From Bacteroidota bacterium (GTDB lineage: Bacteria; Bacteroidota; Bacteroidia; Chitinophagales; JADIYW01), in the NCBI GenBank assembly GCA_020436225.1, contig JAGQYE010000110.1, positions 1 to 64,000 of the forward strand: a stretch of 64,000 nucleotides of DNA. The letters run 5' to 3'. How positions within the stretch are numbered: position 1 is the first letter of the stretch; every line of letters starts with the position of its first letter. Positions 571-23,178 of the stretch are shown piece by piece. Below the pieces are notes generated by a model that had not been told where the DNA came from, searched no databases, and was given only the letters and a program-made list of their open reading frames with translations. The translations under genes and the position numbers were made by a program.

Positions 571-1551
571 TTAAAATAGTTTCTTTAAAAAATTGACATA
601 TTGAACAAACACATAAGGTCCCATTCCATTCATAAAATACAACATGGTAAGTACACCAAGCAACATAATCATTTTTGTTGCATTACTTAACATATGAAAT
701 TGTTTTTTGGACTTTGCGATACCAATAAAAATACACAATGAAACGAGTGGAACCATTATAGTAAAAACAAGCACTAAAGCTGCTGTTTTCATTTTTAATT
801 GAGGAAGAAAAAAAGCAATAGAGCCTAAAAATAACAGTAATAAAATTCCGATAAAAATGGAAATTATTTTTGTTTTCTTGATACCAAAAACGATAGGTAT
901 GGTTTTACAATCGTATTGTTCGTCGCCGATTATATCTTCCATATCTTTTATTATTTCTCTTAAAAAAGTAGTAAAAAAAGCAAAACTACCATACACGATT
1001 GCTGCAGCAAAAATGCCACCTCTGATAGTTGCTTCATTTGTATTCACCATAGATTCGCCTCCACTTTCAAACAAGGCAATAAGCAATATCACAAAAGCCG
1101 TACACAACGACACGATGAAGTTGCCCACTATCAATTGTTTTTTGAATGTATGTGCATAGAAATTAAGTATCACCATAATTAAAACCGGAAACAACGATAA
1201 GCGAAAATTCTTAGTTAAAAATGCCAATACTATCGTACAAATAATTCCGACAAGACATAAGACTTTATAAAAATTATAAGCCTCATCTTCTGAAATTTCA
1301 TTACCAATTATGGTTTTATCTTTTTTATTGATTAAATCAATATCAGAATCAAATATATCGTTGATAACGTAGCCGCCCGCTGCAATAAATACGGTTGCTA
1401 TAGTTAATAAGAAAAATTCAATATTGCTTAAAACGGGTTCAACAAAAAATACTTTATATGGCGTGGCTGTAATAAAACAAAGTCTAAAAAGATACATCGT
1501 CAATATTATCATCAACAAGTTAATAGGACGAATAAGTTTTATATAATTCAT
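571..1551 (-). CDS. UbiA-family prenyltransferase (possibly geranylgeranylglycerol-phosphate type)
   Basis: 326-residue integral membrane protein with about eight or nine hydrophobic segments. Two Asp-rich motifs of the UbiA superfamily are intact: NDIFDSDID at 64-72 and KDMEDIIGD at 202-210, which hold Mg-prenyl diphosphate. Such enzymes attach a polyprenyl chain to an aromatic ring or to a glycerol phosphate. Bacteroidota homologues of this length beside maf and kdsC are often annotated as geranylgeranylglycerol-phosphate geranylgeranyltransferase, an annotation by similarity. The gene lies 8 bp after kdsC and 6 bp before maf. Menaquinone (MenA-like) or another acceptor is equally possible; there are no men genes beside it, although ubiE/menG is in the window. 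Confidence 0.85.
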   Translation of the reverse strand: MNYIKLIRPINLLMIILTMYLFRLCFITATPYKVFFVEPVLSNIEFFLLTIATVFIAAGGYVINDIFDSDIDLINKKDKTIIGNEISEDEAYNFYKVLCLVGIICTIVLAFLTKNFRLSLFPVLIMVILNFYAHTFKKQLIVGNFIVSLCTAFVILLIALFESGGESMVNTNEATIRGGIFAAAIVYGSFAFFTTFLREIIKDMEDIIGDEQYDCKTIPIVFGIKKTKIISIFIGILLLLFLGSIAFFLPQLKMKTAALVLVFTIMVPLVSLCIFIGIAKSKKQFHMLSNATKMIMLLGVLTMLYFMNGMGPYVFVQYVNFLKKLF

Positions 1552-3175: not shown

Positions 3176-4471
3176 TTATGAAAACAAGCGTTCTATATAG
3201 TTATTTTCAAATTTTTTATTGGGATCGAATTGCTGTTTTAATGCAATAAAATCGTTGTATTTTTCATATTGTTCAGCCAAATAATTCTTATCTGCTGAAA
3301 ACTCTTTTCCCCAATGCGGACGTCCGTTATGTTGCTTGGCAAAGTCCTCATATTTCGGCAAAACTGTGTCCCAATGTTCATGTTCATAAGCATACAAACC
3401 CAACCACATAGAGTTGCGTCCGTTTGATGCACTCAACCAAAAATTGTCAGCTTTAGAAAAACGTATTTCTTGAATAAAGTTGAGCTTGAATTTATTTTCT
3501 AACATAAATTGCTTGTAAGATTTCAGAATTTCTTTAGCATTAGCAACATCAAATGCCCATTCTGTTTCTCTGTGTTTTGGTGGCTCTGGAACAACAAATA
3601 CTTTATAACTTTTCTCAATTCTATCTATCGGACCTTTAGAACCATTCGTAAGTAAATTATTTATTGTTTTCGCCAACGCAGGAATTATTTTTCCTGTAAA
3701 TACCAAGAATCTATAAATATAAACAGAAAAAATAATATCATTAATATAAGCGCGCAACTTACTATCGTTTGATTTTTCTTGCGTTCTATTGTATTTATAC
3801 ACTACTACTTTATCTGTTGGCGGCAACCACCACAATTTAAAATGATCATTTTGAACTAAAAGAGTATCTAAATTTTCAATGACTTCATCAAAAGGAATTG
3901 TTGTCGTGTATTCATGTAGTTGAAATACATCAGTAACTTGAAGAACAACTTCAGAAATAATGCCTAAACAACCTAAGTTTACGATACTTGCAGCATAAAG
4001 TTCTTTGTCTTTTTCCTTGTTGATGATGAGTTTTTCGCCATTGGCTTTTATTAATGTTAATTCAAGAATTTGCGAACCTAAAATCTGAAAATCAATTCCT
4101 GTTCCATGTGTTCCGGTTGACGTTGCACCAACAATAGATTGTTGGTCGATTGAGCCTAAATTAATTAACGCTAATCCTACTTTGTCTAATTGTTCATTCA
4201 ATTGCCAAAGTTTTATGCCTGGTTGCGTGCGTACAATTTTATTCTGCTTATCAATTTTTAAAATTTTGTTGAATTTATCAAAGCTGATAAGTGCTTCGTT
4301 GGTAGCACAAATATCCGACCAAGAATGACCAGAACCAACAACTCGGATTTTATCGTATTGTTGAACAATTTGAATAATCTCTGCTTCTGTTTCAGGCTGA
4401 AAATAATTGGCAACTTCGCGTTGAATATTTTTTCCCCAATTTGTAAAATTATACTTCTGCTGATGTATCAT
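3176..4471 (-). CDS. FAD-linked sugar-lactone/alditol oxidase (ALO family)
   Basis: 431 residues with the two-domain architecture of aldonolactone oxidases. The N-terminal FAD-binding PCMH domain carries VVGSGHSWSDI (44-54), in which the His can hold FAD covalently in this family. The C-terminal ALO domain ends with the conserved GRPHWGKEF motif (around residue 393). Family members oxidise L-gulono-, L-galactono- or D-arabinono-1,4-lactone, or alditols such as xylitol, usually with O2 or a quinone as acceptor. No signal peptide or membrane anchor is seen. It is followed at once by the DUF2804 gene. The substrate cannot be assigned. Confidence 0.85.
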   Translation of the reverse strand: MIHQQKYNFTNWGKNIQREVANYFQPETEAEIIQIVQQYDKIRVVGSGHSWSDICATNEALISFDKFNKILKIDKQNKIVRTQPGIKLWQLNEQLDKVGLALINLGSIDQQSIVGATSTGTHGTGIDFQILGSQILELTLIKANGEKLIINKEKDKELYAASIVNLGCLGIISEVVLQVTDVFQLHEYTTTIPFDEVIENLDTLLVQNDHFKLWWLPPTDKVVVYKYNRTQEKSNDSKLRAYINDIIFSVYIYRFLVFTGKIIPALAKTINNLLTNGSKGPIDRIEKSYKVFVVPEPPKHRETEWAFDVANAKEILKSYKQFMLENKFKLNFIQEIRFSKADNFWLSASNGRNSMWLGLYAYEHEHWDTVLPKYEDFAKQHNGRPHWGKEFSADKNYLAEQYEKYNDFIALKQQFDPNKKFENNYIERLFS

Positions 4472-4545: not shown

Positions 4546-6222
<1,677 letters not shown>

Positions 6223-6312: not shown

Positions 6313-7971
6313 ATGCGACAAAACTGGTGGAAATGGGGCGACCCAAACGAAATAAAACACTTAAGCGATTATCCAAAGTTGAGAGATATGGTTGAAGAAA
6401 GATGGAAAACCAAACTGAGAGAAGATTTTTTCCCGCCTAAAAAAATTTCTATTCCTCCAATTCCGGAAAAGAAAAAAGATTTAATTAAAGATATTTTTGC
6501 TTCGATTCATCCTAAAAAAATATCTTTTAGTGCTGACGATAGACTTAGTGTTGCTTTAGGCAAAAGTTACCTTGATGTCATTCGCATTTTTAATGGAAAT
6601 GCATTTGCTGTACCTGATGTTGTTTTAAAACCAACATCGCACGAAGAAATACAAACTATCTTAACCAAAGCAAGCGAAAGTAATGTGCACCTTATTCCAT
6701 TCGGCGGCGGTACAAATGTAGTCGGTGCACTTACTATTTCGGAGACAAACTCAAAGCCGACTGCCATTTGCACTATAGATTTACGCAATTACAAACGTTC
6801 TATTTCTATAGATGAAGAACATTTAACTGCAACTTTCGAAGCCGGTATTTTAGGTCCTGAATTGGAGAAAATTCTCAATAATAAAGGTTATACTTTAGGC
6901 CATTTCCCGCAATCGTTTGAATATTCTACACTTGGAGGTTGGATAGTTACCAGAAGTGCCGGACAAGAATCTACTTATTACGGAAAAATTGAAGATATCG
7001 TAGAACGCATCAAAGTGGCAACGCCGAGTGGCACTTTAGAAAGCAATCCTTTTTCGCACGATGCATCAGGAATTAATATTTTATCTCTATTTGTTGGAAG
7101 TGAAGGAACACTTGGTGTGGTTACAGAAATCACGGTGAAAATCAAAAAATTGCCTAAAAATTATCGCTGGGTAATAGCGTTGTTTCCAACATTTAGAAAT
7201 GGTAATAACTACTTAAAAGCATTAGCACAATCAGGCGTAAAACCATCTGTTGTACGCTTGTCAGATGCGAATGAAACAAATTTATTTTCAAAAATGTCTT
7301 CATCTGAAGAACAAGAACCTAATCTTTTTAATAATCTAAAAAAAGAGGCACAAAAATTTATTCTACAATGGAAAAATTTAACCGAACCTTGTGTTTGTAT
7401 TTTGCGATTTCCTCAAGGTGATTTTAGTGTTTCATCTCAATTAATTCTTGCTAAAGATTTAGTTTCTAAACACGATGGCATGGTGGCACCCAATACTATC
7501 GGCGATAAATGGGCGGACAGTAGATTTAAACTTCCTTATTTACGCGACACTTTAGTTGAACATTCCATTTATATCGACACTATGGAAACCTTAGTACATT
7601 GGAAAGATACGATGAAACTACATCAAGCACTGAATAGAGAGTTAAGTAAATCAGTAGCATTCAACAAACAAAAAGGCATTTTTTTAGCACATATTTCTCA
7701 TATTTATCCGAATGCAGCTTGTATGTATTTTACCTTGATTACGCCAATGCAAAAAGGACGAGAAATTGAACAATGGCAAGAAATAAAAAATATTGCAACC
7801 AATACCATTATAAATAACAATGGTTCAGTTTCTCATCATCATAGTGTTGGAGCTGATCATCAAAGATGGTATAAACTTTTTTCTGATAACTTAGCATTGG
7901 AAGTTTTAGTTTCTATAAAAAATAAATTAGATCCAAAAGGAATAATGAATCCCGGAAAATTATTTAGCTAA
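6313..7971 (+). CDS. FAD-binding oxidase of the alkyl-DHAP synthase (AGPS) type
   Basis: 552 residues, close to the catalytic part of alkyldihydroxyacetonephosphate synthases. The start carries the WWKWGDPNE segment, equivalent to the KWNGWG motif of AGPS. The FAD PP-loop is PFGGGTNVVGAL (129-140), followed by GGWIVTRSAGQES. The C-terminal half holds the HHHSVGADHQRW motif (508-519), the poly-His active-site block of AGPS, and ends with MNPGKLFS. Authentic AGPS exchanges the acyl chain of acyl-DHAP for a fatty alcohol, the committed step to ether lipids. Several bacterial relatives are only AGPS-like, and D-lactate dehydrogenase-type flavoenzymes are more distant. The next genes, 15 and 40 bp apart, are glpD and a lipid kinase, which supports a glycerolipid role. 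Confidence 0.82.
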   Translation: MRQNWWKWGDPNEIKHLSDYPKLRDMVEERWKTKLREDFFPPKKISIPPIPEKKKDLIKDIFASIHPKKISFSADDRLSVALGKSYLDVIRIFNGNAFAVPDVVLKPTSHEEIQTILTKASESNVHLIPFGGGTNVVGALTISETNSKPTAICTIDLRNYKRSISIDEEHLTATFEAGILGPELEKILNNKGYTLGHFPQSFEYSTLGGWIVTRSAGQESTYYGKIEDIVERIKVATPSGTLESNPFSHDASGINILSLFVGSEGTLGVVTEITVKIKKLPKNYRWVIALFPTFRNGNNYLKALAQSGVKPSVVRLSDANETNLFSKMSSSEEQEPNLFNNLKKEAQKFILQWKNLTEPCVCILRFPQGDFSVSSQLILAKDLVSKHDGMVAPNTIGDKWADSRFKLPYLRDTLVEHSIYIDTMETLVHWKDTMKLHQALNRELSKSVAFNKQKGIFLAHISHIYPNAACMYFTLITPMQKGREIEQWQEIKNIATNTIINNNGSVSHHHSVGADHQRWYKLFSDNLALEVLVSIKNKLDPKGIMNPGKLFS

Positions 7972-7986
7972 ATCTATTATTTAATT

Positions 7987-9543
7987 ATGAATAGAGCCTA
8001 CAATATACAACGTGCAACAACCGAATACTTCGACGTTGTTGTTATTGGCGGTGGAATTACCGGAGCTGGCATTGCATTAATGGCTGCTCGCAAAGGCTGG
8101 AAAACCTTAATCATTGACAAAGAAGATTTTGCTTTTGGCACAAGTTCCCGTTCTGCAAAAATGATACATGGCGGTTTGCGATATTTGGAACAACTGCAAA
8201 TTAAATTAGTAAAAGAGGCATTGCATGAGCGTGAACATCTACTAAACGAATATCCGCATTTAGTAAAACCTCAACCTTTTTTCATGCCAATTTATAATTC
8301 CAGATTAAGTAAAATAAAATTAGGAATTGGTCTTTCTGGCTATGATTATTTAACCGGAGAAAGTAGCATGCCCAAACATGCAGATATTGGAATAGAAGAA
8401 ATCAAAAAAAGGTTTCCTCAAATAAATACAAAAAATTTATTAGGTGGATTTATCTATTATGATGCTAAAACAAATGACGCACGTTTAACTAATGACGTCA
8501 TCCAAGAAGCAACTGAATTAGGTGCTGTTGCGGTCAATTATTTTGAGTTAATAGAAATCAAAAAAAATAATTCAGAAATAAAAAGTATTATATGCCATGA
8601 TAAAATTTCTAAATTTTCACAATTGATAAAAGCTAAAATCTTTATTTCGGCAACAGGCATTTGGACAGATGAATTGATGCAGTCTTTTGATTCATCAGAA
8701 CAAAAAAAATATATGTCGCCGAGCAAAGGTATTCATTTAGTTGTTTCCGCAGATTATTTTCCAAAAGATTGCGTCATGCTTTTTCCAACTACAAATGGCG
8801 ATGGACGTATGATTTGGTGTATGCCTTGGGACGACAACCTTAACATAATTGGCACTACAGACACGGATTACGATGATGATAAAAATAAATTGCGCGTAAC
8901 GGAAGATGAAGTCAATTATATTTTAGAAAGCGTTAATGCTCAACTTAAAGACAAGAAAATTTTAGACGAAAATATATTGAGTGTTTATGCCGGTTTACGA
9001 CCATTATTAAATGATGATAATGCGGATAAAAAAAGTAAAGACAAATCACGTGATTATCAAATTTGGTGGAATAATGAAAATATGTTGACCATTTCTGGCG
9101 GAAAATTAACCTCATTTTTATCGATGGCTGAAAAAGTAATTGAAGCTATTGAAGAAAAACACAACATAAAGACATATAATAGTGATGAATTAAGAATAAA
9201 CAGTCTTATCGATTCTTTTAAACATCGATATGGAATTAAAAATGCAACTTTGATTGCTAAGATTGCTCAAGATGAAAAAATTGCAACAACAAATTTTACA
9301 AATTACAATTATAGTCCGGCAGAAATCTATTTTTTTATTCGTCATCAGCATGCACAAAAAATAGACGACATCCTGACAAGACGCACTCTAATTAGCTATC
9401 AAATGCAAAATTACGATGAAGAAGTCGTACAATACATTGCAAATATTTTAGCAAAAGAGTTAAATTGGACAAATGAACAAAAGCAAAACGAGATGGAAAA
9501 TTATAGACAAGCTTGGACATTAATGCACACTTGGAAAAATTAA
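7987..9543 (+). CDS. glpD: glycerol-3-phosphate dehydrogenase, FAD-dependent
   Basis: 518 residues with the Rossmann GGGITGAG (21-28), the FGTSSRSAKMIHGGLRYLEQ region (FAD and substrate contacts), VYAGLRPLL and the ISGGKLTSF motif, followed by the C-terminal helical domain. It oxidises sn-glycerol 3-phosphate to DHAP with transfer of electrons to the quinone pool, and is a monotopic membrane protein in other bacteria. It sits 15 bp after the AGPS-like gene and 40 bp before the lipid kinase gene, all on the plus strand. In this setting it may set the DHAP/G3P balance for lipid synthesis rather than glycerol use: no glpK or glpF is nearby. Confidence 0.93.
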   Translation: MNRAYNIQRATTEYFDVVVIGGGITGAGIALMAARKGWKTLIIDKEDFAFGTSSRSAKMIHGGLRYLEQLQIKLVKEALHEREHLLNEYPHLVKPQPFFMPIYNSRLSKIKLGIGLSGYDYLTGESSMPKHADIGIEEIKKRFPQINTKNLLGGFIYYDAKTNDARLTNDVIQEATELGAVAVNYFELIEIKKNNSEIKSIICHDKISKFSQLIKAKIFISATGIWTDELMQSFDSSEQKKYMSPSKGIHLVVSADYFPKDCVMLFPTTNGDGRMIWCMPWDDNLNIIGTTDTDYDDDKNKLRVTEDEVNYILESVNAQLKDKKILDENILSVYAGLRPLLNDDNADKKSKDKSRDYQIWWNNENMLTISGGKLTSFLSMAEKVIEAIEEKHNIKTYNSDELRINSLIDSFKHRYGIKNATLIAKIAQDEKIATTNFTNYNYSPAEIYFFIRHQHAQKIDDILTRRTLISYQMQNYDEEVVQYIANILAKELNWTNEQKQNEMENYRQAWTLMHTWKN

Positions 9544-9583
9544 TTTCAGTATCTAAATTATAAAAACCAAAAAAAACTAACCT

Positions 9584-10528
9584 ATGAAAATTGCATTCTT
9601 ATTAAATGGAACGATACATAAAATCGAAAAAATAAGAAAAAACATAGCCCTTGAATTTCAAGATATTGAACATAAAATTTTTATCTCGGAATACAGTGGA
9701 CATTTGACCGAATTAGCCAAAACTCATGCAGTAAAAGATTTCGACACCATCATTATTGGCGGTGGTGATGGCACCTTAAACGAAGGAATAAACGGCATTC
9801 TCGCTGCTTTTAAAAACGGCTTATGTGATACAGAAGCTGCTTATGATTGGGAAGCACTTAAAAAAATCAGAGTGGGCATGCTGCCGCTCGGAAGTGGCAA
9901 TGATTTTGCCAAAACTGTAGATGCCACTCAAGATATAAAACAACTCAAGAAAAAGATTATTGACAATAAAACACAATTAATTGATATTGGATGGGTTTCA
10001 TTTTTTAATGCAGAGCAAAATACAGCAACTCGTTTTTTTATCAATATTACAGATGTTGGAATGGGCGGAGAAGTAGTTTTAAAACTTCAAAACCGAGCTT
10101 CCATTTTAGGAACAGATATCAATTATTTTTGGGCAATTACATCTACTTTAGCAACTTATAAAAAGGTAAAAGTTAAAGCAAGTGGAGAAAATTTCCAATG
10201 GGAAGGAAAAATAATCAACTTTATAGTTGCTAACGGCAAATACTTTGGCAATGGTTTAGGCGTGGCACCGGAAGCATCCATTAGTGATGGCATGTTTGAA
10301 ATTGTTATTATCGGCGATATTACTCTTTTAGAGTATTTTAAAAACTTAAGTACAGTAAAAAAATGTCAAAAGGTTAACCATCCTGAAGTTCAATATCACC
10401 GCGTAAATAAAATCAACATTGAATCTATGGAAGCTAGAAAAATTTCTATAGATATGGACGGAGAATTCATTGGATATGCACCAATGACACTCCTAAATTT
10501 AAAGCAAAAAATAAACTTTATTTGCTAA
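9584..10528 (+). CDS. diacylglycerol kinase-like lipid kinase (DagK/YegS/LCB5 family)
   Basis: 314 residues with the DAGK catalytic motif IIIGGGDGTLNEGING (56-71) and the MLPLGSGNDFAK motif (99-110), then the beta-sandwich domain ending with IDMDGEF. The family phosphorylates diacylglycerol, sphingoid bases or related lipids with ATP at the inner face of the membrane. Third gene of the AGPS-like/glpD/lipid kinase group; spacing of 40 bp suggests the same transcript. Bacteroidota make sphingolipids, so a sphingosine-type substrate is possible, as is an alkyl-glycerol made by the upstream enzymes. Confidence 0.88.
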   Translation: MKIAFLLNGTIHKIEKIRKNIALEFQDIEHKIFISEYSGHLTELAKTHAVKDFDTIIIGGGDGTLNEGINGILAAFKNGLCDTEAAYDWEALKKIRVGMLPLGSGNDFAKTVDATQDIKQLKKKIIDNKTQLIDIGWVSFFNAEQNTATRFFINITDVGMGGEVVLKLQNRASILGTDINYFWAITSTLATYKKVKVKASGENFQWEGKIINFIVANGKYFGNGLGVAPEASISDGMFEIVIIGDITLLEYFKNLSTVKKCQKVNHPEVQYHRVNKINIESMEARKISIDMDGEFIGYAPMTLLNLKQKINFIC

Positions 10529-10536
10529 TGTAAATC

Positions 10537-11547
10537 TTACCAACGAGGGCAAGAGAACTTAACATTGTATGGATTTTTGCGACCTCCGCCACCTAACGAC
10601 TTACCTGTAATTGCAAACGAGAATGTAAGTTGAACATGGAAAAATTGGTCATTATCTTTACTATCTCCTCTTTGATTTCCTGAACCTCCAACATTTAAAG
10701 ATCCATCTGATTTCTTTTGACCTTCAACAAAGTTGAAAGCATTATCCGGATAATTTCCTGTATTGGCTCTATTTTGAAGAATTTGAGCTGTTGGATCTAA
10801 ACTAGCAATTTGATCAGGATTTACATAATTTCCACTAACGTCATCTAAATAATCTGTAAATGTTTGATGATAAATTCCTTCTAACGCAATAGAAAATTTA
10901 TTGGTTACATTATATTTAATACCAACCAATGCAATTAAGTCAAATTGAAAATTGCTATACATTTTTTTTACTCCAATAGTTTGTCCTTCTGTTCCCAATG
11001 GACGAAGTTTTACTTTTTCGCCATTTAATTTTGTATAAGGATTAAAATAGAAAAAACCTAAACCACCACCAATATAAGGCGCCCATCTTTCTTTAGAACC
11101 TTTAGATTGGTTGTGCATATATTTCTTTAAGTTGACTTCTGCCATTGCTTGAAACTCTACAATGTGTGTAGAAAAATTCAAGTTACGTCTTGCTCTGTAC
11201 CAGCTATCTGATGGCCCATTAGGTTGGTCGGGAGCAATACCATCTGTATTTTTATCATCGGCAGAAATCATTCCGTACATTAAGTTGGCACGCACTGCAA
11301 AAAACTTATTTACGTTATATCTATAAAATGCAGAAATACAAAAACGAGTAGATTTAAAATCAACGTCGCGAATAAAAGGAGAACCTATTTTCTTAGCTCC
11401 GCCTAAATCTGTTAAAGAGAAATTAGGACCAACGGAAAAGCCGACATCATGACCACTTCCATCGTATTGAGCCTGTGCTCCATAAGGCACAGAAATGAAT
11501 ATAATCAGTAAAATTAGACATTGCGTGATTTTCTTCATCGGGTTCAT
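10537..11547 (-). CDS. outer-membrane beta-barrel protein, PorG-like (DUF6089 type)
   Basis: About 336 residues from the ATG at 11547, which begins directly with a signal peptide (MNPMKKITQ, a hydrophobic run, then AQAQYDG). An upstream start at 11607 would overlap nth and place 20 non-signal residues first, so it is not used. The mature part alternates polar and hydrophobic residues, with RRNLNFSTHIVEFQAMAE, YIGGGLGFFYFNPY, and a final strand FHVQLTFSFAIT, typical of 8-14 stranded barrels. The arrangement resembles PorG, a T9SS accessory barrel that holds the PorK/N ring; a general porin-like OmpA-barrel is the alternative. It follows nth on the same strand and converges with the lipid kinase gene. 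Confidence 0.65.
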   Translation of the reverse strand: MNPMKKITQCLILLIIFISVPYGAQAQYDGSGHDVGFSVGPNFSLTDLGGAKKIGSPFIRDVDFKSTRFCISAFYRYNVNKFFAVRANLMYGMISADDKNTDGIAPDQPNGPSDSWYRARRNLNFSTHIVEFQAMAEVNLKKYMHNQSKGSKERWAPYIGGGLGFFYFNPYTKLNGEKVKLRPLGTEGQTIGVKKMYSNFQFDLIALVGIKYNVTNKFSIALEGIYHQTFTDYLDDVSGNYVNPDQIASLDPTAQILQNRANTGNYPDNAFNFVEGQKKSDGSLNVGGSGNQRGDSKDNDQFFHVQLTFSFAITGKSLGGGGRKNPYNVKFSCPRW

Positions 11548-11593
11548 TTTTAATTTCAAATTATTAAAACCATAAAAATAAACATTTATTATG

Positions 11594-12217
11594 TTATTTT
11601 CTTCCAATTTTTGAACAAATTACACAATTATTTGCATTATGCGTTCTTGCCATACAAAATTCTCGTCCGTAATAGATAATTTGTAAGTGTAATTTGTTCC
11701 AAATATCTTCCTGAAAGAATTTTTTTAAGTCTTTTTCGGTTTGTTCAACCGATTTTCCTGAGCTCAATTTCCATCTATAAGCCAAACGATGTATATGTGT
11801 ATCTACAGGAAATGCCGGAAATCCAAAAGCTTGACTCATTACCACACTTGCCGTTTTATGTCCAACACCGGGCAATGTTTCTAAATCTTCAAAAGTATTC
11901 GGCACTTTGCCATCGTATTTTTCTACTAAAATTTTTGACAATTCTGATATTGCACTTGATTTTCTCGGCGACAAGCCACATGGTCTTATAATTTCCTTGA
12001 TTTTTTCAACAGGAACTTTCGACATGGAATACGGATTATCGGCTAACTTAAACAAATCCGGTGTTACTTGATTAACGCGAACATCTGTACATTGTGCCGA
12101 CAACAAAACCGCAATTAATAATGTGTAAGCATCTTTATGATCTAATGGTATTGGAGGATTTGGATATAATTTATCCAAGGTTTGTGTAATAAATTCTCGT
12201 TTTTCTTGTTTGGTCAC
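11594..12217 (-). CDS. nth: endonuclease III (DNA glycosylase/AP lyase) with altered Fe-S site
   Basis: 207 residues. The helix-hairpin-helix LPGVGHKTASVVMS contains catalytic Lys121, and Asp139 lies in FPVDTHIHR, so the glycosylase and beta-lyase chemistry is intact; it removes oxidised pyrimidines. The C-terminus differs from classic Nth: Cys188, Cys198 and Cys201 are present, but with 9 residues between the first two instead of 6, and the fourth Cys is absent because the protein ends six residues after Cys201. The [4Fe-4S] cluster is therefore doubtful. It starts with GTG at 12217; a -7 box ends 4 nt upstream. It diverges from rnhA. Confidence 0.92.
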   Translation of the reverse strand: MTKQEKREFITQTLDKLYPNPPIPLDHKDAYTLLIAVLLSAQCTDVRVNQVTPDLFKLADNPYSMSKVPVEKIKEIIRPCGLSPRKSSAISELSKILVEKYDGKVPNTFEDLETLPGVGHKTASVVMSQAFGFPAFPVDTHIHRLAYRWKLSSGKSVEQTEKDLKKFFQEDIWNKLHLQIIYYGREFCMARTHNANNCVICSKIGRK

Positions 12218-22808: not shown

Positions 22809-23176
22809 GGGGTTGACAGGAATTGACGGCAGGATAGTTGGTAAGTAAGCATGCCGAGCATTGTGCAATTTGGCTCGTTAAACTCAACGCATGAAACTTT
22901 TTTATATGGCGAGAATAATTTCGCGTTGGCTGCTTAATACAGGTTATTAAGCTTGGCCTTTGCTCCTCGAATTGGTTTTTCCGATGCCATTCGACTGAGC
23001 ATCATCCAATCGGAATAGTGGCTTATTGGTTTCGAATAAGCGATGAAATATAGAAACTAAGATTTTAATCGGTTTGCAAAAACGCCTGTTAGAATACGAA
23101 AATCAAGTTTAGGCTAAGCATGTAGAAAGCTTATGAACGTTTTGTCCGGACGCGAGTTCAAATCTCGCCAGCTCCA
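22809..23176 (+). ncRNA. ssrA: transfer-messenger RNA (tmRNA)
   Basis: The 5' end GGGGTTG (22809-22815) pairs with CAGCTCC (23169-23175) as a 7-bp acceptor stem, followed by discriminator A. The T arm is GCGAG-TTCAAAT-CTCGC. The tag frame is at 22908-22937: GGC GAG AAT AAT TTC GCG TTG GCT GCT TAA, coding GENNFALAA. Several pseudoknot-type inverted segments follow the tag. The template continues ACGA after the acceptor stem, so the 3' CCA is not encoded and must be added. tmRNA with SmpB frees stalled ribosomes and marks the product for proteolysis. A terminator follows immediately. Confidence 0.97.
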
Positions 23177-23178
23177 CG

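Follow-up and report, generated by a model that had tools for sequence, protein, structure and literature searches.

The textbook route of ether-lipid synthesis combines GNPAT, FAR and AGPS. An AGPS-like gene also opens the locus described here, a cluster of three genes for an AGPS-like flavoenzyme, a glycerol-3-phosphate dehydrogenase (GlpD) and a DagK-family lipid kinase, found in a 64,000-nucleotide stretch (hereafter the window) of contig JAGQYE010000110.1 from a Bacteroidota bacterium of the order Chitinophagales, whose draft genome measures 2.69 Mb. Eukaryotic AGPS (ADPS), which has a peroxisomal GNPAT partner, is represented in the PDB by the guinea pig (4bby) and Dictyostelium (2uuu) enzymes, and its mechanism involves an adduct of N5 of flavin adenine dinucleotide (FAD) at C1 (PMC3509576). 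In Myxococcus xanthus, AGPS is encoded in the operon MXAN_1676-1674 together with a FAR/GNPAT-like protein and an NAD-dependent epimerase/dehydratase (PMC9131029). In Mycobacterium tuberculosis, Rv2249c (glpD1), Rv2250c (a regulator), Rv2251 (a flavoprotein) and Rv2252 (a diacylglycerol [DAG] kinase) lie together, and they show similar changes in an expression table of bacillus Calmette-Guérin (PMC4564863). AGPS homologues have moreover been recorded across many phyla in Black Sea metagenomes (PMC11868695). As to breakdown, the monooxygenase AGMO has been called the sole known alkylglycerol-cleaving enzyme (PMC7911779).

Compared with the eukaryotic enzymes, the first gene of the cluster shows full-length homology, the same predicted fold and the same Arg/Arg/Tyr/His-loop residues, but it is bacterial and has a GlpD paralogue and a lipid kinase as neighbours, in a genome without a GPAT_C gene. 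In the M. xanthus system, too, a bacterial AGPS shares its operon with lipid-related genes; there, however, the partners are FAR/GNPAT-like instead of GlpD and the kinase. Rv2249c-Rv2252 unites the gene families found here, although in this actinobacterial type the GlpD and regulator genes are divergent from AGPS-DagK, whereas the window trio is co-directional and includes no TetR or other regulator. Such a mycobacterial counterpart had been pointed to in the original prediction, and it was recovered in a Mycobacterium locus with a layout like that of Rv2249c-Rv2252 (L074: GlpD, a 244-residue gene on the GlpD strand, AGPS, DagK); the expression table cited above agrees with it. The same layout is seen on named plasmids from Tsukamurella tyrosinosolvens and from Streptomyces fungicidicus, publicly annotated with GlpD, TetR, an FAD-binding oxidoreductase and a lipid kinase. 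From the evidence presented below, we consider it likely that the three genes work together as a functional module that acts on sn-glycerol 3-phosphate (G3P)-based lipids and is centred on AGPS chemistry. The trio is probably a real, uncharacterised pathway that makes or, slightly likelier, breaks down ether-type lipids. No paper treating the trio as a pathway was found among the open-access papers searched, which is not proof of novelty.

The open reading frames of the cluster (positions 6313-10528) confirmed the predicted arrangement of three plus-strand genes separated by 15 and 40 bp. Likewise, the predicted gene identities were borne out by PDB matches and by Pfam domains, all above the gathering score: FAD_binding_4 and FAD-oxidase_C in gene 1, DAO and DAO_C in gene 2, and DAGK_cat and YegS_C in gene 3. 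In a phmmer search of PDB chains, gene 1 matched Dictyostelium AGPS with 319.7 bits (E = 3e-94, residues 48-550) and guinea pig AGPS with 232.5 bits (E = 9e-68), compared to 88.3 bits (E = 5e-24) for the best non-AGPS chain. The comparison of a predicted structure with AGPS, as proposed in the original prediction, gave the same picture: the first 37 fold matches of the AlphaFold2 model (pLDDT 87) were all AGPS chains (E = 1.6e-40 to 2e-34), followed by D-lactate dehydrogenases (8e-26). TM-scores to the AGPS chains were mostly 0.8-0.86 in this comparison of the whole fold.

At the residue level, gene 1 carries the HHHSVGADHQRW block with its histidines at 508-510, and R315, R411, Y472 and H508-510 align with R419, R515, Y578 and H615-617 of guinea pig AGPS. 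All of these positions are invariant across 12 orthologues. The titles of PDB entries for AGPS mutants also point to roles of the aligned catalytic residues, and the Dictyostelium counterparts of the two arginines and the tyrosine (R352, R447 and Y508) have been named as important (PMC3509576). Gene 1 thus encodes an AGPS-family enzyme in which the catalytic residues are kept. An ordinary flavoprotein oxidase, the alternative raised in the original prediction, found no support: among GlcD-like proteins of related genomes, HxGDGNxH occurs in 14/14 and SGEHGIG in 13/14, while gene 1 lacks the former and reads SHHHSVG in place of the latter. Motifs, scores and fold together rule out a GlcD-type oxidase.

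The histidine block had been put forward as a mark of AGPS. It is indeed present, but it is not diagnostic alone, as we found a second AGPS-like group that carries HHH as well. This group comprises 16 Myxococcota loci and four Bacteroidota paralogues (members include L045-L048 and the Myxococcota loci L215-L234); it keeps HHH and the tyrosine, and the position of R411 varies. The Arg/Arg/Tyr/His residues are therefore necessary but not sufficient for the assignment, because most of them are present in the second group too. In the tree, the window protein falls with the GlpD-associated AGPS proteins and Dictyostelium AGPS, outside the second group, and eukaryotic AGPS branches inside the GlpD-associated group. 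A further member of the second group is encoded on a plasmid of the dioxane degrader Xanthobacter dioxanivorans YN2 (L244:5968-7635), beside two aldehyde dehydrogenases, a GST and glcDEF-like genes. This group puts the AGPS fold to a different, perhaps catabolic, use. No FAR/GNPAT-associated AGPS of the M. xanthus type was recognised among the 27 widened loci from a search of 113 Myxococcota genomes.

Gene 2 has GlpD/GlpO structures as its best matches, and its model matches them over the whole length. Like the aerobic enzymes (E. coli 2qcu, Bacillus halodurans 3da1, Streptococcus GlpO), it keeps all residues aligned with E. coli H50, R54, Y55, H233, R317, R332 and K354, which we take to form the G3P site. 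The cluster GlpDs differ from them in that they fall in a clade apart from the canonical copies of the same genomes and, in Bacteroidota, have a leucine where canonical copies have an arginine (E. coli R359). Another GlpD, 38% identical to gene 2, is encoded elsewhere in the source genome (contig C75). We therefore refer to the cluster copy as GlpD2. To see how the two copies are distributed, we counted GlpDs in 61 genomes, i.e., the source genome and 60 order-level relatives. Two GlpDs were found in 13/14 genomes with an AGPS orthologue, and more than one in none of the 47 genomes without. In a tree of 108 GlpDs, the Bacteroidota cluster GlpDs formed one clade (support 1.0), and the actinobacterial cluster GlpDs formed another (support 1.0; 33 members, among them a few from other phyla), with the canonical copies of actinobacteria lying outside it. 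A single monophyletic family of cluster GlpDs across phyla is unsupported, since these two clades are separate and other phyla group differently. Among the order-level relatives, gene 2 is thus an additional GlpD paralogue whose occurrence is essentially confined to carriers of gene 1.

Gene 3 also scores above the cut-off of TIGR00147. Its best PDB match is DgkB (2qv7), and it carries the motifs GGGDGTLNEG and PLGSGNDFAKT.

We then looked at the conservation of the cluster. In the synteny check proposed for other Bacteroidota, the order AGPS-GlpD-DagK proved to be kept within the genus and also, at 40-47% identity, in other genera and in another family; genes 1 and 2 overlap by about 8 bp in several relatives (L040, L041, L042, L043). 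The trait is rare and patchy in the phylum: of 392 Bacteroidota genomes drawn evenly, a single further one matched at 1e-60, with a divergent relative (30% identity). For a cross-phylum sample, named genomes were scanned with the orthologue alignment, and the 80 best-matching loci were taken. They span Bacteroidota, Actinobacteria, Chloroflexi (including Dehalococcoidia), Alphaproteobacteria, Acidobacteria-type Blastocatellia, Spirochaetia, Planctomycetota and metagenome-assembled genomes (MAGs) labelled archaeal. GlpD lies within 6 kb of AGPS in 62/80 loci, compared to 0/20 in the second AGPS-like group (Fisher p = 6e-11, indicative only, as the loci are related), and all three genes are present in 40/80. 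Across taxa the predicted three-gene order held in part: the association is conserved across phyla, but the order is not fixed, with several arrangements and orientations such as AGPS>GlpD>DagK (n = 10), GlpD< AGPS> DagK> in actinobacteria (n = 26) and GlpD>DagK>AGPS> in alphaproteobacteria (n = 3). The grouping is not accidental, and the trio is conserved across phyla.

The congener G001 gives a view of the cluster's composition. Its syntenic site holds the ABC-F gene and the kinase (L131:7913-8860) without AGPS or GlpD2, of which no remnants were detectable there, suggesting that the two genes were gained or lost as one unit. Because this genome keeps the kinase without the other two, and because the second GlpD is restricted to AGPS carriers, we regard AGPS and GlpD2 as a tight pair and the kinase as a looser member.

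Some loci of the cross-phylum sample come from MAGs of uncertain labelling. In three labelled Nanoarchaeota or Euryarchaeota (L062, L073, L126), AGPS occurs with GlpD, and in L073 and L126 also with DagK. Provided that their binning is correct, the bacterial module occurs in archaea, which have ether lipids of their own. In a contig titled Bifidobacterium breve (L089), AGPS has an upstream pattern of gene lengths as in Solirubrobacterales loci such as L119; this MAG is probably mislabelled or contaminated.

We next considered which other ether-lipid genes the genome holds. The original prediction had pointed out that no acyl-DHAP (dihydroxyacetone phosphate) synthase gene lies beside the cluster, and this extends to the whole genome for the PlsB/GNPAT class: the GPAT_C model (PF19277), which does not cover other acyltransferase types, found none, whereas the E. 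coli control and two relatives were positive. The aerobic plasmalogen desaturase CarF/PEDS1 (PF10520) is also absent from the genome, and the model works, since the relative G055 matched at 4e-31. The FAR models were uninformative, as PF03015 matched nowhere, controls included, and PF07993 matched every genome.

Archaeal-type ether-lipid potential has been reported for the FCB group (PMC7852524). The window encodes a UbiA-family protein (571-1551, minus strand) whose closest models are those of geranylgeranylglycerol-phosphate geranylgeranyltransferase. A GGGP synthase (PF01884), present in 19/21 genomes tested, is encoded elsewhere in the genome (G000:C13:896-1567). A link between these genes and the AGPS cluster was rejected, because the AGPS-less G001 keeps both.

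The glycerolipid role foreseen for the cluster is supported by the conserved association of AGPS, GlpD and kinase. As to what the module does, the most economical reading is that GlpD2 acts on alkyl-G3P or acyl-G3P and yields the AGPS substrate, alkyl-DHAP or acyl-DHAP, because the other GlpD makes GlpD2 unneeded for DHAP supply. GlpD2 fits oxidation of lipid-linked G3P at least as well as DHAP supply, and breakdown is thus as open as synthesis. We slightly favour turnover or salvage of alkylglycerol (ether) lipids over synthesis, a tentative choice that is plausible but falls just short of probable. The kinase would phosphorylate alkylglycerol from ether lipids to 1-alkyl-G3P. GlpD2, with its G3P site intact, would then oxidise C2 to give 1-alkyl-DHAP, passing the electrons to quinone. 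Finally, the AGPS-like enzyme would run AGPS chemistry towards cleavage: once FAD N5 had formed its adduct at C1 of the lipid-linked DHAP, the departing alcohol would be replaced by water or a fatty acid, so that a fatty alcohol and DHAP (or acyl-DHAP) would result. In such a scheme, oxidation at C2 would labilise the otherwise inert ether bond without the pterin-dependent AGMO. Three points lean towards turnover, namely the oxidising nature of GlpD, the missing PlsB/GNPAT-type acyltransferase and the missing CarF/PEDS1 desaturase. The neighbours lean the same way, as esterases, GMC oxidoreductases, aldehyde dehydrogenases and glycerophosphodiesterases adjoin the module in some loci, which are few and come with no matched background.

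Several observations weigh against breakdown. Characterised AGPS enzymes work in synthesis. The catabolic neighbours occur in few loci and none in the window, and L062 has a PlsC-type acyltransferase instead. The kinase, which adjoins AGPS in only about half of the loci and persists by itself in G001, may have a different purpose. Some distant genomes yielded no GlpD besides the cluster copy, which may there simply act on G3P; nor did the cluster GlpDs show a substrate-specific residue signature, with one shared position (Pro245) compared to three in a control comparison. Furthermore, M. xanthus AGPS takes part in ether-lipid synthesis, if with a slight contribution, as ether lipids fall only slightly when it is lost (PMC9131029), and Rv2252 has been reported as a DAG kinase feeding phosphatidylinositol mannoside synthesis (PMC3229680).

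The last two reports count in favour of ether-lipid synthesis, which we regard as possible but doubtful. Gene 1 would then be a true AGPS converting acyl-DHAP and a fatty alcohol to alkyl-DHAP, GlpD2 would supply DHAP or make acyl-DHAP, and a reductase would yield alkyl-G3P. That every AGPS catalytic residue is kept, and that eukaryotic AGPS nests in the GlpD-associated group, fit this well. It must do without a GNPAT-type gene and an identified source of fatty alcohol, but the former absence would be explained if the same chain started from acyl-G3P: GlpD2 would oxidise 1-acyl-G3P, coming from the kinase or PlsY, to 1-acyl-DHAP and so replace the missing DHAP acyltransferase. As mere DHAP supply a dedicated GlpD is hard to explain, since glycolysis and the other GlpD already provide DHAP. 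In addition, we are not aware that plasmanyl lipids have been described as normal constituents of Streptomyces or mycobacteria.

It is unlikely that the AGPS fold and residues were kept for a different substrate, be it a DHAP- or G3P-linked compound other than an alkyl ether or an oxidase reaction. The fold has evidently been reused, as the second AGPS-like group with HHH and Tyr occurs in other contexts, e.g., on the X. dioxanivorans plasmid. However, the window protein groups with the GlpD-associated set and Dictyostelium AGPS and keeps R411, and its association with GlpD and a lipid kinase suggests lipids of the DHAP/G3P type. Finally, that a generic flavoprotein dehydrogenase merely adjoins a housekeeping GlpD and DagK with no common pathway is very improbable: both families are common and the kinase stands alone in G001, but the association recurs across phyla in varied arrangements, the second GlpD occurs only in AGPS carriers, and gene 1 has AGPS and not GlcD motifs.

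The cluster and its flanking genes are listed in the table.

Features of the AGPS-GlpD2-kinase cluster and its flanks in the window
Feature	Position	Strand	Details
AGPS-family FAD enzyme, gene 1 of cluster	6313..7971	+	552 aa; PDB sequence matches, fold matches, aligned catalytic residues
15-bp gap, genes 1/2	7972..7986	+	
Cluster-specific glycerol-3-phosphate dehydrogenase paralogue (GlpD2), gene 2	7987..9543	+	518 aa; DAO + DAO_C, GlpD/GlpO structures
40-bp gap, genes 2/3	9544..9583	+	
YegS/DagK-family lipid kinase, gene 3	9584..10528	+	314 aa; DAGK_cat + YegS_C, TIGR00147
ABC-F ATPase, divergent flank of cluster	4546-6198	-	
Outer-membrane barrel protein, convergent flank of cluster	10537-11607	-	

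Beyond the ABC-F gene, and before a DUF2804 gene, lies a gene for an ALO/sugar-lactone-oxidase-type FAD enzyme (3176-4471, minus strand). It did not turn up at the same place in the congeners compared and looks recently arrived. The window also holds a tmRNA gene (22809-23177, plus strand) with the tag peptide GENNFALAA.

It is quite possible, if tentative, that these genes represent a widespread, monooxygenase-free breakdown of ether lipids, by phosphorylation of alkylglycerol, C2 oxidation by a dedicated GlpD paralogue and ether cleavage by a reversed AGPS. If true, bacteria would possess a counterpart of AGMO whose chemistry is unrelated, and Rv2249c and Rv2251 of mycobacteria would gain a function. 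AGPS homologues serve as markers of ether-lipid producers; if most bacterial AGPS proteins sit in a degrading GlpD-kinase module, predictions of such producers would need revision. Overall, the module yields a hypothesis that can be tested on what Rv2251 does and on how ether lipids from eukaryotes or other microbes are dealt with by bacteria.

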